DNA of 36,949 bases from a virus. A program made the translations under genes and the position numbers. A model generated the notes under the pieces. The model was not told the DNA's origin, did not search any database, and was given only the letters and a program-made list of their open reading frames with translations. The DNA lies in IMG/VR virus record IMGVR_UViG_3300020129_000209, positions 1-36,949 of that record. One strand, written 5' to 3'. The first letter of the stretch is position 1. The number at the start of each line of letters is the position of its first letter. Shown piece after piece: positions 5,307-36,949 of this stretch.

Positions 5307-7271
5307 CTACAGGACGGGAGCGGCCTCGGGCGTGGGCGCGAGGTTGGGCAGGGGAGCGATTGGCGCGGCCACGGGAGGTGCGGCCACAGGAGACAGGGCG
5401 AGCGGCGACGGCGGCCCAGCTGGCGCAGCGGGGAGCGCTGGTGCCGCACCAGCTGGCGCAGCGACCTTGCCCGCGGCCTTGTCGCGGGCGGCCTGGGCGA
5501 TCGGCTGCAGGTAGTCGAGCAGCTTGCGCATGTCGTACATCGACTCGAACGGATAGGACCCGTCCGCGTCGGCGCGCAGGTAGCGCAGGCGGCAGTACTC
5601 GAAGGTCTTGATGGGGTTCGCCCACTCGATCGGCGTGGTGTAGCGCCCGCCCTCGAGCAGCTCGTCGGCGAAGTTCTCGATCCACTCGAACTCCGCCAGC
5701 TTCACCTCCATGACGGATTCCAGATCCGGCACGCCCAGGACGCGCAGGATCTCGTCCTTGTCGAACCAGCCCGCCTTGACGGCGTCCATGGCCTTCTGCA
5801 GGCGCGCCGGGATGCTCTGCCCGAACAGCGACGTCGGGAACGCGCGCACGGTCACCGGGCCGCCGCTCGCGTCCATGTTGATCGTCGCGACGCGCCCGCG
5901 CTCGGCGGCGCGGTACTCGCGCGTGCCGCCGACGTCGGATTCCAGCGCGAACCACTTCTCGCCGACGCCGCAGACCATCGTCTCCCAGGTCTGCGACAGC
6001 TGCGACAGACGGTCGCTCTGAAGGTCCGTGACCGCCTCGATCGCGACGGCCGCGGTGACGCCCTGGGGCTTCGTGGCCTGGGCGGTGTTCTGCGACACTC
6101 CCAGAACCTCGAACATCCACTGTTTCTTCATCTCGAACCAGCGGTACGCGTCGGGGTCCACTGGCTTGGGGTTGTGGAAGGTGACCGGGCGCCCCGGCAC
6201 GTCGTTGACGTACTGGACGATCTCGTTGGTCATCTTCTCCGGCGCGTGCGGCCCGGACATGAAGAGCTTCGCCGACAGGTGATGGGCGGCGTCGATCTCG
6301 CCGACGGTTTCGTCCAGGCCCGTCTGAATGCCGCGCACCTTGTCGAGCGCAGAGCGGCCCCAGAAGCCCGTGCCCTCGGCGAAGTCGAACCTGAAGATGT
6401 CGAAGGGCAGGAAGCGGTGTTTCCACTCGCCCTCCTCGCCGTCGCCTCCCATGCCGAACACCAACAGGTCGCCAACCATCATGACGTGACGGCCGCGGGG
6501 GCCCTTCGCGTAGGCGTCGACCACGCGCACCATCGGCTGGCCGTTGCGACGGGCCAGGCCATACAGCCCGTCCGAACTGGTGTAGCCGGACGTGCTCGCG
6601 AGCCGCTCTGACCCGCTGATGATCTTGAAGCGCTCCTCGGTCGTCTTGCCGGCGAACCGCAACGCCTGGCGCTGCGTGATGTACCGGACGTGATAGGCGC
6701 ACTCGGGCCGGCCGTACTTGCCGTCATCGGCGTCGATCTTCAGCTCCCACGACGGGAACCGGCCGAGGCTCGTCACAATCTCCTCGTCGTCGGTGCCCTG
6801 AAACAGCATCTCCTGATACGTCTTCAGGACGCCGCCCCGGCCCATGAGGGCGTCGCGGAAGGCCAGGGAGGCCTGCTGCTGATACTCCTCGCGCTGCGCC
6901 CAGGCATCGCTGGCGGCGGTGCGGTCCCGGCACAGCTTCTGCGTCTTGTAGTTGCCCGCCTCGGGAATGAACTGCGCGCGCGGACGGAACGAGCAGATGC
7001 GGCTGACGATGGTGCTAATCACCGAGTAGCTGGCGTTGAACTTCAGTGTCGCGGCGGCGCCGGCGATCTCGGCATAGCTCCACAGGTCCGCCATGGAGAT
7101 GGCGTTGAACGGCCGCCCGCTGTAGAGCGCCAGATCGACGAGCAGCGCGACGAGGCTGCCCTGTTCTTCGGGCGACGTCTCGATCGCCGACACGGCCTGG
7201 TCGAGCTTCGACCGCACGTCATCGGGATCTGTGACCTCGGCGTCACACCACTCTCGGTCAAATTCGTACAT
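5307..7271 (-). CDS. Portal protein
   Basis: 654 residues. ATG 7271 overlaps the terminase stop as TAATG; the stop is TAG, one of the few amber stops here. The sequence has the portal pattern: helical N-terminus, a stem/wing region (FLPFDIFRFDFAEGTGFWGR), and a clip/crown-side helical region (AVAIEAVTDLQSDRLSQLSQ, EKWFALESDVGGTREY). The last 60 residues are Ala/Pro-rich and probably disordered. It forms the dodecameric ring at the packaging vertex to which terminase, and later the adaptor and tail, bind. Position between terminase and scaffold supports the call. Confidence 0.85.
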   Translation of the reverse strand: MYEFDREWCDAEVTDPDDVRSKLDQAVSAIETSPEEQGSLVALLVDLALYSGRPFNAISMADLWSYAEIAGAAATLKFNASYSVISTIVSRICSFRPRAQFIPEAGNYKTQKLCRDRTAASDAWAQREEYQQQASLAFRDALMGRGGVLKTYQEMLFQGTDDEEIVTSLGRFPSWELKIDADDGKYGRPECAYHVRYITQRQALRFAGKTTEERFKIISGSERLASTSGYTSSDGLYGLARRNGQPMVRVVDAYAKGPRGRHVMMVGDLLVFGMGGDGEEGEWKHRFLPFDIFRFDFAEGTGFWGRSALDKVRGIQTGLDETVGEIDAAHHLSAKLFMSGPHAPEKMTNEIVQYVNDVPGRPVTFHNPKPVDPDAYRWFEMKKQWMFEVLGVSQNTAQATKPQGVTAAVAIEAVTDLQSDRLSQLSQTWETMVCGVGEKWFALESDVGGTREYRAAERGRVATINMDASGGPVTVRAFPTSLFGQSIPARLQKAMDAVKAGWFDKDEILRVLGVPDLESVMEVKLAEFEWIENFADELLEGGRYTTPIEWANPIKTFEYCRLRYLRADADGSYPFESMYDMRKLLDYLQPIAQAARDKAAGKVAAPAGAAPALPAAPAGPPSPLALSPVAAPPVAAPIAPLPNLAPTPEAAPVL

Positions 7272-12394: not shown

Positions 12395-12581
12395 CGGTCA
12401 CCGTTCCTTTCGTTGTTGGGCGCGCGGCTTCGCCCTTCGACACCAGGGCCTCGCCGCATCTCTTGTGAACGATTCGCTCAACGCCGGCGACGACCACGAC
12501 GTCGTGCGAGCGGCGGCCGTGGAGCTGGCGCGAGCAGTCCCAGCAGAAGGGCACCCGGGGCCTGTTGGCTTGCAGCTTCAT
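12384..12581 (-). CDS. Small zinc-ribbon-like protein
   Basis: 65 residues from ATG 12581 (ATGA overlap, GAAGG upstream). CWDCSRQLH ... HKRCG gives a CxxC-x~25-HxxC arrangement that could hold one zinc ion. The remainder is basic. Probably nucleic-acid binding; the family is not recognised. Confidence 0.5.
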   Translation of the reverse strand: MKLQANRPRVPFCWDCSRQLHGRRSHDVVVVAGVERIVHKRCGEALVSKGEAARPTTKGTVTDGH

Positions 12582-12970
12582 CCTTCGTGGTCCGCACAGG
12601 GCAGCAGCAGCGAGCAGGGGGCGCCCGAGCGCATGGGGTGGCGGCACCGCTTCCCCTCGGCCAGCTCCCGGACCACGCGGTCAGCGGCGCCCGGCTCGAT
12701 ACGTTCCCCGCGGGCGCCGGCCCTGCACTCCCCGCACGAGCGGCCTGGCCTCTTCGGGTGGCCGAACTGGCAGCGCACCAGCGTCGGGTCACCCTCGGCC
12801 TTGATTCGCTTCCTCGCCGTGGAGAGCGTGGAGTAGACGGATTGGCGGCCGATTCCGAGGCGGGCCGCTATCTCCCCCGGGTCGTGGCCGCGAATCGCCA
12901 GCTCCATCACTTCGCGCTGGCGCGCTGACATCCGACGGAAGGCCGCGGTGTCCATCGCCGTCGCCGTCAC
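12578..12970 (-). CDS. HTH protein with two Cys/His knuckles
   Basis: 130 residues from GTG 12970 (GTGA overlap, strong GGAGGTG). Residues 15-57 (SARQREVMELAIRGHDPGEI, AARLGIGRQSVYSTLSTARK) match a sigma-70 region 4 / LuxR-type helix-turn-helix. Two related cysteine/histidine segments follow: RCQFGHPKRPGRSCGECR (67-83) and KRCRHPMRSGAPC ... CADH (107-128). It is likely a DNA-binding regulator made in the early phase. A region-4-like HTH with zinc knuckles makes it a candidate for the unknown late activator, although its genome position gives no proof. Confidence 0.65.
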   Translation of the reverse strand: MTATAMDTAAFRRMSARQREVMELAIRGHDPGEIAARLGIGRQSVYSTLSTARKRIKAEGDPTLVRCQFGHPKRPGRSCGECRAGARGERIEPGAADRVVRELAEGKRCRHPMRSGAPCSLLLPCADHEG

Positions 12971-13158
12971 GCTGCACCTCCGCAGTCGTCGCACAGCTCA
13001 CGAACGCGGCCATGCCCGCACCGACGTTGCCTCAGCAGCGCGCGGCAACGGCCGGCGCGCCAGTGCACGAACCACTTCGCGCCACGGTCGGCGGCGATGT
13101 TGATGGCGGCCCACAAGGCGAAGAGACCGAGCAGCCCGGCGATGTCCAGCCAGGTCAC
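12967..13158 (-). CDS. Small membrane protein with Cys-rich tail
   Basis: 63 residues from GTG 13158 (GTGA overlap). Residues 1-22 (TWLDIAGLLGLFALWAAINI) form one transmembrane segment; the rest is basic and carries RCGHGRVRELCDDC, a possible zinc site on the cytoplasmic side. Function unknown. Confidence 0.5.
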   Translation of the reverse strand: MTWLDIAGLLGLFALWAAINIAADRGAKWFVHWRAGRCRALLRQRRCGHGRVRELCDDCGGAA

Positions 13159-13688: not shown

Positions 13689-14113
13689 CCTCTTCGGCTC
13701 CCGTGTGACAGGTAGAGGGCCGTCGTCTCAGCGATGCGCGCCTCGGCCCACTCGCGGCGCTGTTGCTTGGTCCAGCCCCCGAACCAGCCTCGGTGTTCGG
13801 TCCACTGGCGGTGCAGGCCGGTGCACATCGGGATCGTCTCGCTGTCGGGGCAGCGGGTGGCGAGCCCCTTGCCGGTGCGGCCCTCGTGGCAGACCTCGAC
13901 GCGCCCGGTGCACTGGTGGGCCGGGCGCCAGTGGCCGGCCTCGTCGCGGATGAGGTCGGCGAACGTCCTCCGGCCCACGCAATCCAGCGTCGCCACAAAC
14001 CCCATCCGCGCGGGGTCGGCGTGCGGCCCACTCAAGCGGCGCGGACGTCGGGCCTTGATGCCCCAACGCTTCGCCCGGAGTGGCGTGCGCCGCTTGAGTG
14101 GGGAGCGGTTCAC
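13685..14113 (-). CDS. HNH-like / NinG-Ref-type nuclease candidate
   Basis: 142 residues from GTG 14113 (GTGA overlap). It opens with NRSPLKRRTPLRAKRWG, the basic RSPLKRxTPLR start typical of phage recombination-associated HNH proteins (NinG/Ref-like). The core (72-107: VEVCHEGRTGKGLATRCPD followed by SETIPMCTGLHRQWTEH) has the order Cys-His, then a Pro-Met-Cys strand, then HxxxxxH, as expected for a degenerate beta-beta-alpha metal nuclease. It may cut recombination intermediates alongside the recombination genes further upstream. The catalytic assignment is uncertain because the second histidine pair is atypical. Confidence 0.55.
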   Translation of the reverse strand: MNRSPLKRRTPLRAKRWGIKARRPRRLSGPHADPARMGFVATLDCVGRRTFADLIRDEAGHWRPAHQCTGRVEVCHEGRTGKGLATRCPDSETIPMCTGLHRQWTEHRGWFGGWTKQQRREWAEARIAETTALYLSHGSRRG

Positions 14114-14550
14114 GCCACCGCCGTCGGTTCGAAGACGTCGAACAGCTCGTCCATCGTCGCGAGGATCGTCGCCTCGCGGAACATCAGCTCGGGCTCGGTC
14201 TCCCCAAACGCCACCACGTAGCCCTTCTTTCCCTGGCCCATGGCGTAGCCGAACTCCCAGGAGGCCGAGCGGCCGCACGGAAGCACGTACACGACGGCGT
14301 CGCAGTCGCGCAGGGCCGCGATGTCAGACGCGTAACCGGCCTCGGCGACAGGATGCGCGAGCATCTTCCGCCAGGTCTCGACGTCGACGTGCCCGCCCGG
14401 GCCGCGACTCACGCCGGTCTGTTCCCATCCGAACCCGCTCCCGCTGGGCGGGTTCTTGAAGTCGTAGACCTCGTGCCCGCACCGACGGAGCGCGTACACG
14501 ATCGCCGGCTGCAGGTGATTGCGCCACGACGACGCCACGTAGATTTTCAT
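14110..14550 (-). CDS. Nucleoside 2-deoxyribosyltransferase-like protein
   Basis: 146 residues from ATG 14550. MKIYVASSWRN at the N-terminus, GHEVYDF, DIAALRDCDAVVYVLPCGRS and SASWEFGYAMGQGKKGYVV (97-113) follow the order of the nucleoside 2-deoxyribosyltransferase superfamily, with E99 as the expected catalytic glutamate and GRS (93-95) near the phosphate/ribose site. Family members transfer deoxyribose between bases or hydrolyse nucleotides. In a phage this could salvage or remodel host nucleotides or destroy a nucleotide signal; the substrate cannot be read from the sequence. Confidence 0.7.
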   Translation of the reverse strand: MKIYVASSWRNHLQPAIVYALRRCGHEVYDFKNPPSGSGFGWEQTGVSRGPGGHVDVETWRKMLAHPVAEAGYASDIAALRDCDAVVYVLPCGRSASWEFGYAMGQGKKGYVVAFGETEPELMFREATILATMDELFDVFEPTAVA

Positions 14551-14758: not shown

Positions 14759-15922
14759 CTACTCCCCCTCGCTGTAGTCGGCTTCGTTGCCCTCGCCGTC
14801 GACCATCTTCACCGTGAGGCGCCGCGCCCCCTTGGCAGGCTTGTCGCCCGTCTTCGCGGCCTCGCGGGCGTACGGGACGAAGCCGCCCTTGCCGTCGGAG
14901 ACCTTCGCCTCAGCGCCGCCAAGGCGCAGCTCGTCGGCGGCGTTGAGCCACTCCGTGACCCCAACGAACCCCGTGCGCGCGCACTCCTGGCACTTCGCCA
15001 GGCGCGCCGGGATGCGCTTGCAGGACGGGCACACCGCCCGCGGATAGGCCGCGCGCACGTCCGAGGTGAACTCGCCCAGTGGCCCCACGACGTCGCGACA
15101 GATGGTCGCCGCCAGGGAGTCGACCCCGATGTCCCGCGAAAAGGCGGCGTACGCCTTGGTCAACGCCGTCTCCAGTTTCTTGAGCGCCTCCTGGGCGACA
15201 ACGACGTGATACGCGTCCTCGGCGGACAGCAGCGGGAGCCCGTAGGTTTCGACCGGCGGGGGCAGTTCCGCGACGGGGCGCCCTTCGTTCTCGTCCTCGG
15301 CGCGCGCGGCTAGCTCGGCCTCCCGCTCGGCTTTCTTCTCCGCCGCCCGCGCCCGTTTCTCGGCCTGGCGGATGGCCTCGGGGGTCTTCCCCGTCGCCGC
15401 CGCCACCGCTTCACGCGCCTTGCCCTTCGCCGTCTTGGGCCGACCGACGGGGCGTGGCTCTTCGGGCTCGAGCTCGGGCTCGGCGCCCGGCAGTTCGTCG
15501 GCGGGACCGCCCCGAGGCGCATTCCGGATGGCCTCGGACTCGGCCCTTGCGGCCTCCTCCATGTCCGTCTTTTCGATCTCGCCCTGGGTCAGCTCGACGT
15601 ACCGCTTGGTCATCGCGTCGACGTCGTCGTTGTGGCGGCGCTCGATGTTCTCGGCGAGCTGCAGCGCCTCGAACTCCTCCTCGGTGCCCCGGAAGACGCG
15701 GACCTCGTGCGTCTTGGCCTTCAGCTTCAACAGTGCCGTCAACCGGTCGCCGCCCGCCAACAGCTTCTTGGTGCGGTCCTGGATGACGATGAGGTTGATC
15801 AGGCCGTGTCGCTGGATGCTCGCCATCCGGCTCGGAATGTGGGCCAGCTTCGCGCGCTCCTTGAACCCCTTCGGGACCAGGATGCTGGCCAGCTGCACCT
15901 TGCGTGTGCCGGGGAGAATCAC
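14759..15922 (-). CDS. ParB/Srx-like DNA-binding or nuclease protein with zinc ribbon
   Basis: 387 residues from GTG 15922 (GTGA overlap). Residues 10-97 match the ParB N-terminal domain: IPSRMASIQRHGLINLIVIQ, LLAGGDRLTALLKL (GDR in place of GERR) and LQLAENIERRHND. A long charged coiled-coil linker (115-215) follows, then a C-terminal region with CPSC (298-301) and CQEC (311-314), a four-cysteine zinc site. Phage ParB-like proteins act as CTPase clamps, nucleases or regulators. No parA is present, so plasmid-like partition is unlikely; a regulator or nuclease role is favoured. Confidence 0.75.
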   Translation of the reverse strand: MILPGTRKVQLASILVPKGFKERAKLAHIPSRMASIQRHGLINLIVIQDRTKKLLAGGDRLTALLKLKAKTHEVRVFRGTEEEFEALQLAENIERRHNDDVDAMTKRYVELTQGEIEKTDMEEAARAESEAIRNAPRGGPADELPGAEPELEPEEPRPVGRPKTAKGKAREAVAAATGKTPEAIRQAEKRARAAEKKAEREAELAARAEDENEGRPVAELPPPVETYGLPLLSAEDAYHVVVAQEALKKLETALTKAYAAFSRDIGVDSLAATICRDVVGPLGEFTSDVRAAYPRAVCPSCKRIPARLAKCQECARTGFVGVTEWLNAADELRLGGAEAKVSDGKGGFVPYAREAAKTGDKPAKGARRLTVKMVDGEGNEADYSEGE

Positions 15923-16434
15923 AGGGTCTCCGTGGGCGCAGCGGAAGCCTCGGCCGTCGCCGTCGCCAGGTCAGCCGACTTCGCAGCGGGGCCGTTCGCC
16001 AGCCAGTCGACAATCCACCCCTCGGTGATTTTGGCGACGGGGTTCTTGTCGGGCGTCGAGCCCTCCGTGATGGCGAGGAACCACCGCTCGGCCGGTCTCG
16101 AGCTGTCGGGCTCGAATCCCAGTTCGCCGTAGCTGCAGCCACGGACGTTTGCGAGGGTGCCCACCAGGCACGCGCAGGAGCCGTGATAGGTCGACCCGTC
16201 GACGCGCCCCTCACGCAGCGCCAACAGTAGGCCCGGGACCTCGGCCGGCGCGCTGGCGAGCACCTTGTACAGGTCGTCGCGGATCGGCGAGAGGTTCGCG
16301 CGCGAGAGGTCCGCGTCCGAGAGGTTCGCGCGCGAGAGGTTCGCGTCCGAGAGGTACGCGCGGGATCCGCCTTCCTCGCCGCGGCGCCACTTCCCGTGGG
16401 CCTCGACGACTGCCGCCAACTCGGCGGCAGTCAA
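15919..16434 (-). CDS. Pentapeptide-repeat phage protein
   Basis: 171 residues from TTG 16434 (TTGA overlap). Five to six pentapeptide repeats occupy residues 26-50 (YLSDANLSRANLSDADLSRA), followed by a conserved-looking domain with IRDDLYKVLASAPAEVPGLL, GRVDGSTYHGSCACLVGTLA and ERWFLAITEGSTP. Proteins with this layout recur in phages of high-GC hosts; the function is not established. The short repeat run is too small for a DNA-mimic gyrase inhibitor of the Qnr type. It is the first complete gene after attP in the reading direction. Confidence 0.7.
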   Translation of the reverse strand: MTAAELAAVVEAHGKWRRGEEGGSRAYLSDANLSRANLSDADLSRANLSPIRDDLYKVLASAPAEVPGLLLALREGRVDGSTYHGSCACLVGTLANVRGCSYGELGFEPDSSRPAERWFLAITEGSTPDKNPVAKITEGWIVDWLANGPAAKSADLATATAEASAAPTETL

Positions 16435-16707: not shown

Positions 16708-16724
16708 TGTCACGGTTCGGTCAA
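16708..16724 (-). promoter_or_regulatory. Repressor-controlled promoter upstream of the att ORF (candidate)
   Basis: TTGACC (16724-16719) is followed 1 nt later by AACCGTGACA (16717-16708), an exact half-site of the early operator, with an imperfect opposed copy (TGTACCGGTT) 5 nt further. A 16-18 nt spacer puts a weak -10 at TGTACC or TACCGG. The arrangement resembles the early promoter, where the operator also fills the spacer. A 15-bp palindrome (GTCGAGATTCTCGAC) follows at 16687-16673. Confidence 0.45.
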
Positions 16725-17767
16725 TTACTTTTTTCGCCTACATCTGGCAAATCGACCTTCGCCGACTTATTGCGCGCGCGGTGTGGGCCCTTCCGGGGGC
16801 CTGCCAGCTGGCGGCGGACCAGCTCCCGGCGGGCCCTGAAATCCAACACGTCTCGGGCGTCGTGAATGTCGTAGCGGTCGAAAACGGCCCGCGTCTTGTG
16901 CCCGGTGATGTTCATGATGGCCCGCTCACTCTCGCCGTCGCGTCGGGTGAGCGTCACGAACGACCGGCGAAGGTCGTGGAGCCAGGGCGGCCCGTCGGGG
17001 CCGTCGAGCCCCAGGCGGCGCACCAGGCGGCCAAAGCGGTGCGTCCAGGTGTCGCTGGCGATCGGATGTCCCGGGCGCCGGGGCGACTCGAACACGTAGG
17101 TGCTGGTCGCGGGCAGCTCGGCGATCGCTGCAACGGCGTCGCCCGACAGGGGCACGATGCGGCCGGCGCGCTTGCCCTTGACCTCCTTGGAAGGAATCCA
17201 CACCACGCCGTTTCGGATGCGGTCCCGTCGGAGCCTGGCAGCCTCAGCGCGACGCACACCCGAGTGGTGCACGACCAGGATGTACGCGCGCAGCTGGGCG
17301 CCGGCCTCGCGGAGGAAGTCGGCCAGGGTGAGGCCGGTCTCGGCGCGCTCTTCGATCACCGTCGTGCGGGCGTTGTCCTCTGGGTGGATCAGCTCGCGGG
17401 TCATGCCGGGCCCGTGCAGCTTCGAGCGGGCCACCAGCTCCCGCCGCACGCCGAAGTTCACCAGCCGGCGCAGCAGCGCGATCTCCCGGTTCACGGTCGC
17501 GATGGCCGCATTCTCGGCCAGCCGGCGTGACCGGTAGGCGTCCACCTCGGCCGGCCCGACGGCACCCGCCTCGAGGTGACCGAACGCCGGCCCCACGTGG
17601 TCGCGCCAGCGCTGGGCGTAGTCGCGCCAGCTGGCGAGCCGTTCACTGTTGGCGAGTGCGAACGGCGCCCACAGGTCGGCGGCCGTAACGGCCGGCGTCA
17701 CCGTCGGGGCAAGCCTGTCGACAGCAGCTCGCAGAGCTGCGAGCTGCGCCAGAACCTCAGCTGACAC
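16721..17767 (-). CDS. int: Tyrosine-type integrase
   Basis: 348 residues from GTG 17767 with GGGAGGG 5 nt upstream. A SAM-like core-binding domain (about 28-110: LWAPFALANSERLASWRDYA, VNREIALLRRLVNFGVRREL) precedes the catalytic domain with the full active-site set: R172 (HHSGVRRAEAARL), K197 or K199 (SKEVKGKRAGRIVPL), H264 and R267 (WLHDLRRSF), H290 (ITGHKTR) and Y299 (VFDRYD). It lacks an obvious N-terminal arm-binding domain beyond a short helix. The adjacent tRNA-Lys 3' fragment is its expected attP core. The C-terminus is unusually basic. Confidence 0.93.
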   Translation of the reverse strand: MSAEVLAQLAALRAAVDRLAPTVTPAVTAADLWAPFALANSERLASWRDYAQRWRDHVGPAFGHLEAGAVGPAEVDAYRSRRLAENAAIATVNREIALLRRLVNFGVRRELVARSKLHGPGMTRELIHPEDNARTTVIEERAETGLTLADFLREAGAQLRAYILVVHHSGVRRAEAARLRRDRIRNGVVWIPSKEVKGKRAGRIVPLSGDAVAAIAELPATSTYVFESPRRPGHPIASDTWTHRFGRLVRRLGLDGPDGPPWLHDLRRSFVTLTRRDGESERAIMNITGHKTRAVFDRYDIHDARDVLDFRARRELVRRQLAGPRKGPHRARNKSAKVDLPDVGEKSN

Positions 17768-18737: not shown

Positions 18738-18923
18738 TTAGCGGTCACGCCAGTAGCGGACCGTCTCCAGCTCGGAGACGTGGATGTGCGCGCCGCGGAA
18801 GTCGCAGCGGTCGTGGCTGCAGCGACCAGGTGCGCGCGTGACCGGAGGCGGTGCGGCCAACTCCCCACGCTCCCATGCGGAGGCCGCGCGAGGCTCGCGC
18901 AATTCGTCCTCGGCGCCCATCAC
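18738..18923 (-). CDS. Small Cys/His protein between the recombination genes
   Basis: 61 residues from GTG 18923 (GTGA overlap; ATG is the next codon), TAA stop. CSHDRCDFRGAHIH gives a compact Cys-x4-Cys-x5-HxH cluster that could bind zinc. The remainder is Ala/Pro/Arg-rich. Its position between the ATPase C-terminal ORF and the nuclease suggests an accessory role. Unrecognised. Confidence 0.45.
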   Translation of the reverse strand: MMGAEDELREPRAASAWERGELAAPPPVTRAPGRCSHDRCDFRGAHIHVSELETVRYWRDR

Positions 18924-19237
18924 GCGGCCTTCGGCGCGGGCGCGCTGTACGTCTTGGTCTTCTTGTCGAGCTTGTAGCCCTTGGCGATGGCCGCGGCGGC
19001 GATCATCAGCGCCACTGCCTTGGGGGCGGATTCCTCTTCGGCCAGCGCCACCAGGCTGTCAAAGTCGGTGGTCGCGGACGCCTTGTCGATGCGCTCTTTC
19101 CACGCCGCCTGCAGCGCCCGCTCCGCGGCCTGCTCAGCCGACAGCTTGTTCAGGGCCGTCTTGGTCTGCTCGATGGCGGTGGCCAGGACCGGCACCATGG
19201 CGCCGGGGGCGAACGTCGGCACCTCGATCGGCGCCAA
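18920..19237 (-). CDS. C-terminal part of the Sak4-like ATPase, separated by an amber codon
   Basis: 105 codons if begun at TTG 19237. The frame is open from 19258, directly after the TAG that ends the ATPase ORF, and is in phase with it. The intervening codons read FGKNPGQ, then LAPIEVPTFAPG, as in Sak4-type proteins, where a GKNP motif leads into the C-terminal helical domain. The rest is helical (TAIEQTKTALNKLSAEQAAE, DFDSLVALAEEESAPKAVAL) with a lysine-rich end. An independent start is weak: there is no ribosome site near the TTG. It is best read as the second half of one 303-codon gene. Confidence 0.6.
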   Translation of the reverse strand: MAPIEVPTFAPGAMVPVLATAIEQTKTALNKLSAEQAAERALQAAWKERIDKASATTDFDSLVALAEEESAPKAVALMIAAAAIAKGYKLDKKTKTYSAPAPKAA

Positions 19238-19258
19238 CTGGCCGGGGTTCTTGCCGAA

Positions 19259-19261
19259 CTA
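19259..19261 (-). other. In-frame amber (TAG) codon inside the Sak4-like gene
   Basis: The context is GTG-TAG-TTC-GGC on the minus strand. Protein continuity across it (SPSDV-stop-FGKNPGQLAPIEVP) suggests that a sense codon is expected; TAC or CAG is one change away. It could be a mutation, an assembly or sequencing error, or a suppressed codon. Confidence 0.75.
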
Positions 19262-19831
19262 CACGTCCGAAGGGCTAAAGTTGAGCATGCGCCGGCCCCG
19301 CTGCATCGACAGCGATCCCATCATGTCGGCGCTCTTGTAGACCTCGTTCTTGGAGGCCCCTTGCATGTCCAGGCGGGTGATCAGCTCGTCACCCTTCCGC
19401 TGCTCGTCGGAGTGGCAGATCAGCACGATGTCCAGGCCGATGTACTTCAGGTTGCTCAGCCACTGGTAGAAGGTCGACTTCAGAGCGCCGAATCCCTGCA
19501 GCGACAGCGCGCCACCCCGGTTGTTCTTCGAGTCCTGCGCCATCAGGTCGGCCGCCAGGCAGTCCAGCGCGCGGCCGGCGGTGTCGACGACCACCGTCGA
19601 GTAGCCGGCGAAGTCGGCGGGCGTAAGGTTCGAGACGTCGCGCCAGCTCTCGATCTGGACGCAGTCCCCGCGGAACGCGCCAGCGCGATACACGCCGCTG
19701 TCGAACGCCAGGCACAGGGGTTTCTCGGCGGTGAACCCGAGGGAGGTTTTCCCGATGCCGGGGTCTCCGTGGATGCAGACAACTACGTGCTTCACTTCAA
19801 TAGGATCGGCGGCCTTGGTGATCTTGAGCAT
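19259..19831 (-). CDS. Sak4-like recombination ATPase (AAA_24 type), N-terminal part
   Basis: 190 residues from ATG 19831 (AAGGAAAG ribosome site). It is a RecA-fold phage ATPase with Walker A GDPGIGKTS (22-30), Walker B STVVVDTAG (78-86, D83), an LQGFGALKSTFYQWL helix and the sensor-like ICHSDEQRKGDE (139-149) typical of AAA_24/Sak4 proteins. These assist single-strand annealing during phage recombination together with a nuclease and SSB. Family members continue beyond the RRMLNFSPSD motif into a GKNP segment; here TAG interrupts at that place and the rest follows in the same frame, so the gene is split or suppressed. Confidence 0.8.
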   Translation of the reverse strand: MLKITKAADPIEVKHVVVCIHGDPGIGKTSLGFTAEKPLCLAFDSGVYRAGAFRGDCVQIESWRDVSNLTPADFAGYSTVVVDTAGRALDCLAADLMAQDSKNNRGGALSLQGFGALKSTFYQWLSNLKYIGLDIVLICHSDEQRKGDELITRLDMQGASKNEVYKSADMMGSLSMQRGRRMLNFSPSDV

Positions 19832-19867
19832 GGTTCTTTCCTTGTTTCTGGTTGAACGGACCGGTAA

Positions 19868-22882: not shown

Positions 22883-23199
22883 CCCAGGTTGTCCCGCGTG
22901 TAGAGGGGCTCGTAGTTCTGCGTGGGGACGTGATAGATGGTCCCGTCGGGAGCGACAGCCTTGATCTCGACGTCCCACGCCGACGAGGTGTCGACGTCGG
23001 CAGGAAGGGGCACGTACTTCCAACGGCCATTGGCCGCGTCGACCGCAACACACCCGCCGTTCGCAACCTTGATCGCGCGCGTCGCCTTGTCCACGACGTT
23101 GAAGGTGACCGTATACCCAACGGTGTTGACGGCCGCACCAGTGGCGTCGCGGATTGTGAACGCGAACGGGTACGTGTCTGTGCGCTTGCGCGGCTTCAT
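22879..23199 (-). CDS. Ig-like/BppU-N-type tail accessory protein
   Basis: 106 residues from ATG 23199 (ATGA overlap). A regular beta pattern (YPFAFTIRDATGAAVNTVGY, TVTFNVVDKATRAIKVANGG, GRWKYVPLPADVDTSSAWDV, YHVPTQNYEPLYT) resembles BppU-N-like Ig domains, which in tails attach fibres or baseplate appendages. It is coupled to the repeat-containing protein upstream, so it may help mount it on the virion. Confidence 0.55.
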   Translation of the reverse strand: MKPRKRTDTYPFAFTIRDATGAAVNTVGYTVTFNVVDKATRAIKVANGGCVAVDAANGRWKYVPLPADVDTSSAWDVEIKAVAPDGTIYHVPTQNYEPLYTRDNLG

Positions 23200-25322
23200 T
23201 CGTCGAAGTCCGCTGTCAACGTAACGTCGTCAAACACAACGGTCAATTCAGCGTCGTCAAAGTCGACCATCAATTCAAAGTCGTCGAAGACCGCAAATAA
23301 CGGGGCGTTGAGCGTTGCAATTGCGGCCAACGCGTCCGGTAATGGGACTGCCGACAGGTACTCACGCCAAGCCTTTCGAGGTCGCCACGGCGTGCCCGGC
23401 GCGTCGAACGATCCGAGCGTCTTCTTGATCGGGATGAGGCCGGGCAGCGGGAGACCCTGCGCTGTCTCCGGCGGCCGCGGCCGCGGAACGGTTGGCCCGC
23501 GCGAGTCGCCAGCCCATCCAAGCGCCAGGAACCCGATCGGCTCGCCGCCGGCGTGACGGATCGTCGCGATCCTGCGCATCGGCGGCGGAGGCTGATCGCC
23601 CGGCCATGGCTTCGTGACGAGGCCGCCCGGCGCGTCGCCACCAGCGAAACGCAGCTGCACCAGCTGGCGCGGCCCCGGAGCCGTCGTGTCGCTCGCCCAG
23701 GGCGCGAGGCCTGCTGCGACGACGGACGGCATGGCGTCGCCGCCAGCTGGCCGCGACGCGATCGTCGAGCGCGGTCCCTGCTGTTGGGCATCGCCCGGCC
23801 ATGCCACCAGCGCCGCGGCAGGAGGGGCGGGTATCGCGTCCCCGCCGGAAGGCCGCCGAGCGCTCGCCTGTTGCGGCCTGGGCTGCTGAACCTCGCCCGG
23901 CCACGTTCCGAGCGCCGGCGCCGCCAGGGCGGCCAGCGCTTCGCCTCCGTGTAGCTGGCGCAGCGAGACGAGGCGAGGCGCCAGCGCGGGGAAGTTCTCG
24001 GGCGCGGCCGTCAGCGCCGCGGAGCCGAACCCGGGTAGCGGATCGCCGGGCCTTTCGTCTGCGCGGCGGCGGAATGGCGCCGGCTGCACCGGATTGGATT
24101 CGACCGAGGGATAGTCGCCGATGCAGACGACCCATCCGACGAAGGCGGACACGGCCGTGGTCATGCGCCACGTCGCCGTGGTGGGCCCGATCGCTGTCAG
24201 GTGGCCGACGACCCCGATCGCGCCGTTGCCAGGCACGTAGATGGAGCTGGCGTTGTCGGCCGCGGACGTGCACACCGCGCCGACCTGGGCGTTGGTGTCG
24301 CGGGTTGCGGTGGAGTGCTCGATGCCCACGCCCGTGAAGAAGCCGGTGCAGAGACGCGCGCTCCCCGTGGCGGTGCCCGCGCTGCTCTCCGTGGTGTTGC
24401 CGGACATCGCGACGATGCCGCCGAGGACCTTGAACCCCGGCGTGATCACCATGTCCGTGGTCGTGTTGGTCGCGCACGTGATGGTGCTCAGCTCCCAGAG
24501 CCCGTCGAAGAACAACAGCACCGGATACTGGTGCGTCCCTGCGCCTTCAACCGCGCTGTAGGTCCACGTGAAGTCGGCGGACCCCATGGCGGTGCAGCTC
24601 GCGCGCGCCAGCGGCGTTGTGCCGCCCGTTGAATTGCCGCGCGCCATGCATTCGGCGCTTCGAAAATAGACCTCGCTGACGGTAGTGGCGCGACCGTCGT
24701 CCGACCAGCCCGCCATCACGCCGTTGCGGATGGTGCCGGCGGGGTTCTTCAGGAACACGCCGAACGACAGATTGAAGTCAGTCGCGACCTGAGAGGGCGA
24801 GCTGAACGCCGACACGCCGCCCATGACGGGGACGATCCCGCACCGGGGCGCTCGAGGCAGGCCGGTCGTCTGGCTGGTGGTCGCCGTCGCCGGCTCGGCC
24901 GCCGTCACCGTCGCGAGCGCGGCCATCGGAATGGCCAGCCACTTGACGAGGATGTTGTTGGTGAAGGCCGTCGACGGCGTGATCGTGAAGCCCGTCGACG
25001 ACCAGGTGATCCCGGCCTTCCCCGCGTCCGCGCCGGCCGTCGACAGGGCATGGATGACGCTGTCGTCGCGTTCGCCCTGCTGGCACGCGCTGGTGCCCGT
25101 GTCCTTCGACGTGCCGGCCACAGACGCGTTGCCGTTGGCGCCGCCGCTGTAGCCCGCGATTCCGTAGCCCGCCTGAATGGTCGCGCGGGCGACGGTGTTC
25201 GACGTCTGCCCCGACCACGAGAGGACCAGGCCGCATCCCGTCAGCGTCGGATCGAAGGGAAGCGTCTGTGGCACACCCGTGGTGCCGGTGCCGACGTTGA
25301 ATTCGCCCGTCGCGATCTGCAT
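23196..25322 (-). CDS. Large virion protein with WPGD-type and FDD repeats
   Basis: 708 residues from ATG 25322. Residues 1-410 form a globular beta-rich domain (MQIATGEFNVGTGTTGVPQT, CGLVLSWSGQT, YPVLLFFDGLWELSTI, GVVGHLTAIGPTTATWRMTT) with about 10 cysteines, similar in feel to phage tail-side proteins. From about residue 425 come six degenerate repeats of 30-34 residues with a GG(D/E)A start, a W(P/A)GD centre and a PRP/PGPR turn. The last 35 residues are a nine-residue repeat (VFDDFELMV, DFDDAELTV, VFDDVTLTA, DFDE). Probably a fibre or appendage with a stalk of repeats. Function inferred from position only. Confidence 0.6.
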   Translation of the reverse strand: MQIATGEFNVGTGTTGVPQTLPFDPTLTGCGLVLSWSGQTSNTVARATIQAGYGIAGYSGGANGNASVAGTSKDTGTSACQQGERDDSVIHALSTAGADAGKAGITWSSTGFTITPSTAFTNNILVKWLAIPMAALATVTAAEPATATTSQTTGLPRAPRCGIVPVMGGVSAFSSPSQVATDFNLSFGVFLKNPAGTIRNGVMAGWSDDGRATTVSEVYFRSAECMARGNSTGGTTPLARASCTAMGSADFTWTYSAVEGAGTHQYPVLLFFDGLWELSTITCATNTTTDMVITPGFKVLGGIVAMSGNTTESSAGTATGSARLCTGFFTGVGIEHSTATRDTNAQVGAVCTSAADNASSIYVPGNGAIGVVGHLTAIGPTTATWRMTTAVSAFVGWVVCIGDYPSVESNPVQPAPFRRRADERPGDPLPGFGSAALTAAPENFPALAPRLVSLRQLHGGEALAALAAPALGTWPGEVQQPRPQQASARRPSGGDAIPAPPAAALVAWPGDAQQQGPRSTIASRPAGGDAMPSVVAAGLAPWASDTTAPGPRQLVQLRFAGGDAPGGLVTKPWPGDQPPPPMRRIATIRHAGGEPIGFLALGWAGDSRGPTVPRPRPPETAQGLPLPGLIPIKKTLGSFDAPGTPWRPRKAWREYLSAVPLPDALAAIATLNAPLFAVFDDFELMVDFDDAELTVVFDDVTLTADFDE
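23480..24050 (-). repeat. Coding tandem repeats of 30-34 residues
   Basis: Within the 708-residue protein. Three consecutive copies are exactly 34 residues (starting GGEALAALA, GGDAIPAPP, GGDAMPSVV), followed by 31 and 30-residue copies (GGDAPGGLV, GGEPIGFLA) and preceded by a diverged one. Each has a conserved Trp followed by PGD, PGE, ASD or AGD. Limits are approximate. Confidence 0.6.
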
Positions 25323-33534: not shown

Positions 33535-36500
33535 TCACTTCCATCGCGATCCCTGGTCGGTGACCAAGGCTCCTTCGCGCGTCCCAATGATTGCGGAGAA
33601 CCCATCAACGCGGACTGTACAGTCGCCGGTGGGCAATACCAGTTCCAGCGAGAACGATGTGCATTTCTGGTTGCGGGGCACCATTTCGCCAGTCCCCGAC
33701 AACACCGCACCCGAAACCGCCCCGCTAAGGAACTGCTCGACCTGGGCGTCGTCGTTGTTGCGGTAGATGCGCCCCAGGAGCTTGACGCTGGCGCCGCCGC
33801 TGGTGCGCGTGTACGTCACTCGGCCTCGGTAGAGGCGCAGGCCCTGTTGCCCGGCGGTCGCCGTCGAGCCGGTTCCCGGGCCGCCTGAGCCCTGCGTGGG
33901 GCGCATCCACGGCGAGCGGATGGTGCCGACGAAGGCCGCGCCCTGGTCGGTCAGCTGCGTCTGGTCTCCCTCGCGCCAGACGGTCCCATCGTTGCGGAAG
34001 AGCACCAGGCGGCCGGCGATCACCACGCACCGGCGCATCCCGGAGAGACCCGTCACCCGCCGCCAGTAGTTGAAGGTGATGTTGTGGATCAGGAGGTAAT
34101 TTGTGGTCACAAAGACCACTTCATTGGTGGTCGACACAAAGCACCCGTCGTAGACCGTCTCGGGTGTCTGCACCAACGGCTGGTGCAGGAACTGATCGAC
34201 GGCGTCCATGAAGACGACCACGCCTTGCTTGTCGACGGTGTGAATCCCGCGCTCGCCGACGAAGTAGAGCACCTTGCCGGTGTTCACCAGCGGCGAGCCG
34301 GGCAGGGCGCCCTGGTCGGTGTCGATGCGGTCGAAGTGGTAGTTGGTGCCGCTGCCCGAGTCGGTGAAGCCGTCGCCCGTGCCGAAATAGATCGCGTTCT
34401 TCTTGAACAGGACGTTCTGCGTGTCGAGGCTGGCGCCGTTGGTGAGGTCGCCGAACTCGTCGTCCTGGTCAACGATGCCTTCGTTGGTGAACTCCGGCTG
34501 TCGGCCGGGGCGCAGGTTCTTGGTGTACCAGGCCTCGGTGGGGTACTCGGCGTTGATGGCCCACAGCCGGTCGTCGTGCATCCAGACCGCGCGCGGCGGG
34601 GGCGTGATGGCCGTGGCCAACTCGCCCTGGGTATAGAGCACCTCGCCGTCGACGATGGCAGAGTCGGGCGCCAGATCCGTGTAGGTCGCCGCCCCGCCAA
34701 GCCACGTCAGGATCGTCGCGATCCGGCGGTAAGACGAGCCATTTGCGGCGGTTCGGTAGATGCCGACGCGGACCCTCCGCGAGGTCGTATCCGTCGGCCA
34801 GAGCGCCCAGACGAATTGAACGGTGTTGTGCAGGGCGCCCAGGGTGATGAGCCACGGCGCCGAGGGCGGCGAGCGCCAGATGTTGCCGTCGTTGTCCAGC
34901 ATCTCGGCCACCAGCACGTAGCCGTACTCCGCGCCACCCGTCAGCGTGCCGGCCGCCGTGCTCGAGCTGCCCGAGATGACCGCCCTCGGCGGCGTGGCGA
35001 GCCCATGGCGCACGGGCGCCTCGTTCTCGACGTACGACAGCTCGGCGCCGGGCAGGTAGACCGTCTGCTTGTACGTCACCGGCTTCTGCGTGGGCATCGC
35101 GGCGATGTCCTGGCCCGTCAGCTGGTTCCATTCGAAGAGGTCGACCGAGTAGTGCCGGACGATGGTTCCCGCGTTGTCCTCGTAGATGACCTGAACGGGC
35201 AGGCCCGCGGACCACTGGCGCGAGCCGGTCTTCGTCACCTGGAACAGCGACGCGTTTCCGACGGTCTTCCCCGCGGCCAAGGGCTCGGGGGCGGACACGG
35301 GCCGGCCGAGGAAGTATGGCGTGCCGAGGGGGATCCGCATCTCGACCCAGGAGTCCTGTGGGTCGTCGACGTTGGTCGAGTGGAACCCGGCCAGGAAGTT
35401 GTAGAAGTTCCCCGCGTTGTCTCGCCAGGCAACGGAGTCGAGGGTGACGCCGACTTGCGACGAGTTGAGCAGATCGGCCGGCGTCCCGACCACGCCCCCC
35501 GTCTTGTCGCTCAGGCGGATGGAGGGCGCGGCGATTTGGTAGGCGACGTTGTAGTTCGCGCCGGCCGAGGAGGCCACGCCGGTGATCTGGGTGCTTGCGA
35601 CGGCCTCCACCTGGTCGTTGGTCAGCACCGCGCCGGCGCTGCTCACGCGGGTCACGCGCGTGGTGGGGGTCGTGTGCGAATTGGCGATGAAGCGGACGCC
35701 GGAGCTGTCCGGGTCGACCAGCAGCGACAGCGCGTTCGCGCAAGAGATGCCCGCCGTCGCAACGTCGGTCGGCACCGCGCCGGTTGCGGGGTTGAACTCG
35801 AGGTGTCGAACAGCGTCCGCCGCCGTGCGCACCACGACGGTGATGGTCGCGCCGCCATACCAGACGGCGTCGAGATAGGGCGCGGTCGCGTGGCCGCCAG
35901 CTGCCTTGACGGTGTAGGTCGCCATGGCGCCCATCGTCGACGGGATCACGTAGGCCAGGAGGCTCCCGTCCGAGCGCGCCGCGAACATCACCAGGTGCGT
36001 CGACGTCGAGGCGCCGCGCCAGCGCAGCACCAGCGCATCGGTGGTGATCTGCCGGGGGACGCCGTTGGTGACGTCGACGGCGTAGACTGGGTTCGCGGCG
36101 CCGCCCGCCGGATCGCCCGTGCCGAGGAGCGCGACGTTGCCCAGGCGCGTGAAGCCGGTAGGGAACGAGCCGTTCCCGATCTCCACCAGCGGCATCCGCT
36201 TGTGACTGGCCGGCGGCGAGCCGAGCGACGACGAGCCGTAGGGCGCCCACCGAGGCGAGCCGGCGCCCACCGATGGGTAGTAGGACATCGCCAGCGCCTG
36301 GCTCTGCGCGAACATGCCGGCGTCGCCCAGGTTGCCGACGAAGTAGGGGAACGTGTCGCCGGTGTAGAAGCTGCTCCCGCTGGGCAGCGAATCGAGGCTG
36401 TCATTCGTGAAGCCGTTGCGCCGGCGCCACTCGTTCAGGCGCTCCTGAATGACGTTGTCGAGCGTCAGGTGGGAGCCCGGCTGGATCGCCAGAGGCGATT

Positions 36501-36558
36501 TCTTGGTGTCGAGGCCGCCGGTCAGCGGCCAGGACACGGGGATCTTCTGAAGGCTCAC
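33535..36558 (-). CDS. Tail nozzle / tail tubular protein B-like
   Basis: 1007 residues from GTG 36558 (AGGGG close upstream). The N-terminus (WPLTGGLDTKKSPLAIQPGS then HLTLDNVIQERLNEWRRRNG) has the GGLDT ... NV ... RRRNGF pattern of podovirus nozzle proteins. The body is beta-rich, with repeated WxxxN/GTGD blades (NAIYFGTGDGFTDSGSG, VLYFVGERGIHTVDK, EVVFVTTNYLLIHNITFNYW), in line with the beta-propeller of tail nozzles. It forms the distal tube of the short tail below the adaptor, and carries the fibres. Length is greater than the usual 700-800 of T7-type proteins, suggesting extra domains in the middle. Confidence 0.75.
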   Translation of the reverse strand: MSLQKIPVSWPLTGGLDTKKSPLAIQPGSHLTLDNVIQERLNEWRRRNGFTNDSLDSLPSGSSFYTGDTFPYFVGNLGDAGMFAQSQALAMSYYPSVGAGSPRWAPYGSSSLGSPPASHKRMPLVEIGNGSFPTGFTRLGNVALLGTGDPAGGAANPVYAVDVTNGVPRQITTDALVLRWRGASTSTHLVMFAARSDGSLLAYVIPSTMGAMATYTVKAAGGHATAPYLDAVWYGGATITVVVRTAADAVRHLEFNPATGAVPTDVATAGISCANALSLLVDPDSSGVRFIANSHTTPTTRVTRVSSAGAVLTNDQVEAVASTQITGVASSAGANYNVAYQIAAPSIRLSDKTGGVVGTPADLLNSSQVGVTLDSVAWRDNAGNFYNFLAGFHSTNVDDPQDSWVEMRIPLGTPYFLGRPVSAPEPLAAGKTVGNASLFQVTKTGSRQWSAGLPVQVIYEDNAGTIVRHYSVDLFEWNQLTGQDIAAMPTQKPVTYKQTVYLPGAELSYVENEAPVRHGLATPPRAVISGSSSTAAGTLTGGAEYGYVLVAEMLDNDGNIWRSPPSAPWLITLGALHNTVQFVWALWPTDTTSRRVRVGIYRTAANGSSYRRIATILTWLGGAATYTDLAPDSAIVDGEVLYTQGELATAITPPPRAVWMHDDRLWAINAEYPTEAWYTKNLRPGRQPEFTNEGIVDQDDEFGDLTNGASLDTQNVLFKKNAIYFGTGDGFTDSGSGTNYHFDRIDTDQGALPGSPLVNTGKVLYFVGERGIHTVDKQGVVVFMDAVDQFLHQPLVQTPETVYDGCFVSTTNEVVFVTTNYLLIHNITFNYWRRVTGLSGMRRCVVIAGRLVLFRNDGTVWREGDQTQLTDQGAAFVGTIRSPWMRPTQGSGGPGTGSTATAGQQGLRLYRGRVTYTRTSGGASVKLLGRIYRNNDDAQVEQFLSGAVSGAVLSGTGEMVPRNQKCTSFSLELVLPTGDCTVRVDGFSAIIGTREGALVTDQGSRWK

Positions 36559-36592
36559 GTGCCCCTCGTTTCCGGCCGTTGTGACCGAGAAA

Positions 36593-36949
36593 TCACGCGT
36601 ACCACGTTGTCACCCGGCACCAGCACTGAGCGCCGTCGTTGCCCTTGCCGCTGTTGTTGCCGTTGTTCGAGGCACCGCCACCGCCGCCGCCCGCGCCGTA
36701 GTTGCCGCCGCTCGAGCCCGCACCGCCGGTTCCCGCGCCGTTGCCACCTCCCCCGCCGCCGCCGCCGCCACCGCCCGTTTCGCCGGCCGCGCTGGACGCC
36801 GGCGCGCCTGCAGCGCCTCCGACGGCGCCCCCTGTGCCTCCAGCGAGGTTCGTGGCCCTGTCGGGGCCGCCGTTGCCGCCGGCTTTGCCAACGACGCCGG
36901 CGAGGCCGCCACCGTGACCGCCGCCACCACCGCCGCCGCCTGCGCGCCC
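36593..36949 (-). CDS. Glycine-rich tail fibre, C-terminal part (continuation of 873-1)
   Basis: 118 codons open from the window edge to TGA at 36595-36593, in the frame that continues the fibre gene from position 1. It is nearly pure Gly/Ala/Asn/Thr with runs of up to ten glycines, and ends with a short structured cap (GNDGAQCWCRVTTWYA) containing two cysteines and two tryptophans, as seen at the tips of glycine-rich fibres. It is followed, 34 nt later, by the nozzle gene. Confidence 0.7.
   Translation of the reverse strand, partial: GRAGGGGGGGGHGGGLAGVVGKAGGNGGPDRATNLAGGTGGAVGGAAGAPASSAAGETGGGGGGGGGGGNGAGTGGAGSSGGNYGAGGGGGGASNNGNNSGKGNDGAQCWCRVTTWYA

Follow-up and report, generated by a model that had tools for sequence, protein, structure and literature searches.

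A single in-frame amber codon in the Sak4-family recombinase gene of a metagenomic phage, probably a recent nonsense mutation

A gene for a Sak4-like recombination ATPase is cut by one in-frame TAG codon in the phage DNA analysed here, which raises the question of whether this codon is a mutation carried by the phage, a mistake in the assembled sequence, or a signal that the host reads in another way. The window, that is, the whole stretch of DNA that was analysed, is an IMG/VR virus record of 36,949 bases. On its minus strand, a frame that starts with the ATG at 19831 reaches the TAG (19261-19259) after 190 sense codons; if the TAG is passed over, a further 112 codons (19258-18923) follow before the next stop, a TGA (18922-18920). 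Reading of the sequence confirms in this the preliminary description, which had reported the TAG followed by 112 open codons down to 18920. With a GC content of 68%, an open stretch of this length arises by chance with a probability of about 0.12 and is weak evidence when taken alone. The features of the locus are the following:

19259..19831, minus strand: interrupted frame of the Sak4-like ATPase, 190 amino acids, with the P-loop, the Walker B region and a C-terminal beta-hairpin carrying the invariant R181
19259..19261, minus strand: in-frame TAG, codon 191; the relatives found all have a sense codon here
18923..19258, minus strand: remainder of the Sak4 gene beyond the TAG, 112 codons, with the FGKNPGQL segment and the helical C-terminal tail
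18920..18922, minus strand: TGA that closes the full-length frame; the genes of close relatives stop nearby
19836..19843, minus strand: likely Shine-Dalgarno region (aaggaaag), preceding the ATG at 19831

The first 190 residues match Pfam AAA_24 (PF13479) with an E value of 2.3e-32, and the short frame matches phrog_124 (PHROG 124, Sak4-like ssDNA annealing protein) over residues 2-189 with an E value of 3.8e-33 and 116 bits, which places the protein in the Sak4 family by sequence profile, as had been proposed. When the two halves are joined, the match to phrog_124 extends to residues 2-298 with an E value of 8e-41 and 142 bits, and both coverage and score increase. Given this gain, the 74% protein identity of the part beyond the TAG to viral contig G001 (E 3e-48), and the same pattern of GC content by codon position on the two sides (0.60/0.43/0.90 upstream and 0.63/0.50/0.95 downstream of the TAG), the segment beyond the TAG is clearly real coding sequence. 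The earlier view that it is the natural continuation of a Sak4 protein is therefore borne out.

The nearest Sak4 genes are found in the viral contigs G001, G002 and G003, with more distant ones in G004-G009; the nearest sequences are from uncultured phages, are 52-95% identical over the first 190 residues and have the C-terminal helical tail. Where the TAG stands, 59 of the 75 viral loci that were retrieved together with the downstream part have a codon for alanine, 13 one for serine and 3 one for glutamine, and a residue is also present there in 22 of 22 relatives from bacterial genomes (Stenotrophomonas, Xanthomonas, Devosia, Mesorhizobium and others). None of these 75 viral and 22 bacterial-genome loci has a stop at this position, and in each of them one uninterrupted gene runs through the site. 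A collection-wide scan for a TRR codon pattern at the site returned one contig only, with TGG and no stop. Directly beyond the site, relatives of the FGKNP type show little or no variation in the segment FGKNP(G)QL, with F192, G193, K194, N195, P196, Q198 and L199 invariant across 36 sequences. Near-identical copies of the window's own site were not found in IMG/VR, in a search that may omit very close records, and the window DNA had no match among phage records. The preliminary description had pointed to homologues that naturally end here and are followed by a separately initiated second gene as the finding that would speak against an interrupted gene; such homologues were looked for, and all those found are single genes across the site. 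In the window, the scan of in-frame starts beyond the TAG detected a Shine-Dalgarno-like sequence only before the ATG at residue 276. A separately initiated second gene is thus rejected, given that the homologues are single genes and that there is no suitable start near the stop.

Comparison of the window with G001 gives a dN/dS of 0.10 (dS 0.41) for the part before the stop and of 0.27 (dS 0.57) for the part after it. For the intact pairs among G001, G002 and G005, the dN/dS after the site is 0.40-0.51, and the value of 0.27 is not higher than these. The downstream part was therefore under purifying selection until recently and shows no drift. This low dN/dS at a normal dS indicates that the interruption would be young; it is equally expected if the stop is erroneous or if some readthrough takes place.

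Given that the relatives found all have a sense codon at the position of the TAG, the favoured explanation is a recent nonsense (amber) mutation at residue 191 of a gene for a Sak4-family single-strand-annealing recombinase, and this is probably what the window records. The intact relatives and a downstream part that was recently under selection are what is expected of a nonsense allele. This explanation also draws support from the fact that no other window ORF checked is interrupted, from the precedent of the G003 and G002 contigs described below, and from the lack of both a tRNA gene and a start with a Shine-Dalgarno sequence near the stop. The mutation would then be a genuine feature of the phage, with translation most likely ending at the TAG to give a product of 190 amino acids. 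Three options had been left side by side in the preliminary description, and they now separate: the recent nonsense mutation is preferred, an error in the sequence comes second, and a short and long form made through suppression has no positive support.

The second of these options, a sequencing, consensus or assembly error in the metagenomic contig with an intact gene in the real phage, is unlikely but has to be taken seriously. A difference at one position is enough to explain the TAG, the relatives are all intact at the site, and the downstream part has no sign of decay. The listed ORFs of the window were compared with six relative contigs, and interior stops came up in two cases only, the TAG of the window and, in the Sak4 gene of G003 (L090:3376-4278, plus strand; L004:3001-3909), the closest near-complete relative, a TGA at codon 19; the remaining stops in the reverse comparison were judged to be overlapping wrong frames or extensions upstream of starts. 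The Sak4 gene of G002 (L003/L098) is intact in a contig that is 99.95% identical to G003, with 2 differences in 4,233 aligned bases. Over about 10.9 kb, two SNPs and one 3-base indel separate G003 from G013, a further contig that shares its dataset number with G002. G003 and G002 differ by a single stop-making base in almost identical DNA, a pattern to be expected from a consensus error as well as from a minority allele. Nonetheless, no other interrupted gene was found in the window of about 37 kb or in its relative, which argues that the sequence is not generally error-prone, and single-base consensus errors are rare in short-read assemblies. Taken at face value, the stopped gene of G003 and the intact one of the near-identical G002 suggest that broken and intact Sak4 alleles coexist in this phage group.

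An interior stop in Sak4 occurs in G003 alone among about 81 other viral contigs, and the aligned part of the 22 genome loci has none. One of the latter loci, a prophage Sak4 in the chromosome of Devosia sp. A8/3-2 (L115:3001-3830), matches from residue 24 and has a seeming frame change after residue 207, and it is probably a decayed, frameshifted copy.

Other genes of the window were also compared with G003. The pentapeptide-repeat protein gene at 15919-16434 (minus strand) has as its counterpart in G003 a run of short repeats (L090:6733-7002), and the near-identical G002 contig breaks off at this run. The ORF of 708 amino acids at 23196-25322 (minus strand) has no Pfam, PHROG or PADLOC match, and only its last 38 residues match G003, which suggests a mosaic gene. 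An open frame of 1020 codons at 33889-36948 (plus strand) lies antisense to a minus-strand gene of 1007 amino acids and is rejected as a gene, since it is interrupted by ten stops in the aligned stretch of G003 and is an artefact of high GC. On the minus strand, 14110-14550 and 12578-12994 encode a nucleoside deoxyribosyltransferase-like protein (phrog_12607, E 3e-40) and a sigma-70 region 4-like helix-turn-helix protein, respectively.

Readthrough of the TAG in the host, by an amber suppressor tRNA or by leaky termination, is quite improbable as a source of a short ATPase core together with the full-length protein. The intact downstream frame and its conserved sequence would fit such a pair, and so would the place of the break, just past the RecA-like core strands of the AlphaFold2 model; given that the HK620 Sak4 has been described as a protein consisting of the RecA core only (PMC5928155), the short form could in principle fold. 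However, programmed readthrough goes with a conserved stop and a stimulating context, and here the stop is unique to the window and the RNA fold downstream of the TAG is not significant (z -1.59). Moreover, the near invariance of F192-L199 means that the short form would miss residues kept throughout the group. The window contains no tRNA genes, and therefore no suppressor tRNA, and TAG terminates 5 of its 47 listed ORFs, including the Sak4 frame and the portal gene (5307-7271). Global recoding of TAG, already held unlikely in the preliminary description, is rejected on the same grounds and because a single gene is interrupted, where a TAG-recoded phage would have TAG within many genes and a suppressor tRNA.

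The AlphaFold2 model of the read-through sequence (mean pLDDT 80.7) has its last core beta-hairpin at residues 170-184, which includes the invariant R181, and helices within residues 215-283. In Foldseek, this model matches Rad51 paralogs, RecA and the solved Sak4 of phage 52A (8rc5), so that the read-through sequence has the RecA/Rad51-like fold of the Sak4 family; a sequence search of solved structures reached 8rc5 at chance level only (E 0.56). The arginine finger of Sak4 proteins is said to sit in the C-terminal hairpin (PMC8093625), and R181 may be its equivalent. The 190-residue product would keep the P-loop ATP-binding core and this hairpin, and would lose the helical C-terminal tail and the invariant FGKNPGQL segment, which lies after the TAG and is present only if the codon is read through. 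Since both parts are missing, the short product is probably inactive or poorly active.

Loss of Sak4 should carry a cost unless another function covers for it, given that Sak4 is essential in the staphylococcal phage phi11 (PMC5499656), and this counts against the nonsense mutation. Neither lambda red nor P22 erf is needed in recA+ hosts (PMC5499656), and the phage of the window may lean on host RecA or on co-resident phages. Among the window ORFs scanned, none was recognised as a second annealing protein, and near Sak4 the profiles revealed no convincing candidate for a cognate SSB, the kind of partner that stimulates ATP-dependent annealing in the Sak4 family. Given that a tyrosine-recombinase-type integrase is encoded at 16721-17767, the phage is probably temperate and able to persist as a prophage.

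A host defence of the AbiK/AbiA-like or Stl2-like kind that senses or targets Sak4, and thereby favours loss of Sak4 function in this phage group, is the least probable of the explanations weighed and would be surprising. Phage phi31 can grow on AbiK hosts when its Sak4 is mutated (PMC5499656), Sak4 mutation is a documented route past AbiK (PMC5499656, PMC8093625), and Sak4 is also a target of AbiA (PMC8093625) and of Stl2 (PMC11846896). It is in line with such a pressure that the window and G003, the sole case among the other viral contigs, each have a different stop in their sak4 gene. Nonetheless, these are two cases only and were spotted after the fact, and plain dispensability of the gene, or an error in either contig, would give the same pattern. 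PADLOC returned nothing for Sak4 and nine further window ORFs. A terminase search for cultured relatives that might point to the host gave no match. A broader form of the idea, in which sak4 loss alleles segregate beside intact ones in a temperate clade, hosts with defences triggered by or aimed at Sak4 maintain an on/off polymorphism, and the TAG of the window and the TGA of G003 are two of its alleles, is very doubtful as well.

The locus shares with the known Sak4 annealing proteins (phrog_124; PF13479; HK620, phi31, phi11, 52A) the P-loop RecA/Rad51-like core and the C-terminal beta-hairpin with its invariant arginine, and differs from them in that its frame is broken at residue 191. An in-frame TAG in a conserved gene is also seen in TAG-recoding phages (crAss-like, genetic code 15; PMC9523058), whereas the window has a single such TAG, normal TAG stops elsewhere and no suppressor tRNA. 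It is closest in kind to ordinary nonsense alleles and phage pseudogenes, with a single stop in an otherwise intact conserved gene and with intact relatives. What distinguishes it from these is only that a close relative, G003, carries an independent stop in its own copy of the gene; this second stop is the sole unusual element of a case that is ordinary overall. For annotation, this means that the 190-residue product should be recorded as an interrupted Sak4, neither as a naturally short Sak4 nor as evidence of recoding. Coexisting broken and intact Sak4 alleles fit the known biology of a protein that is an AbiK/AbiA-type target, and selection on sak4 is so far an unsupported idea; if population reads showed repeated sak4 stops, defence-driven natural selection on phage recombinases would become directly testable.
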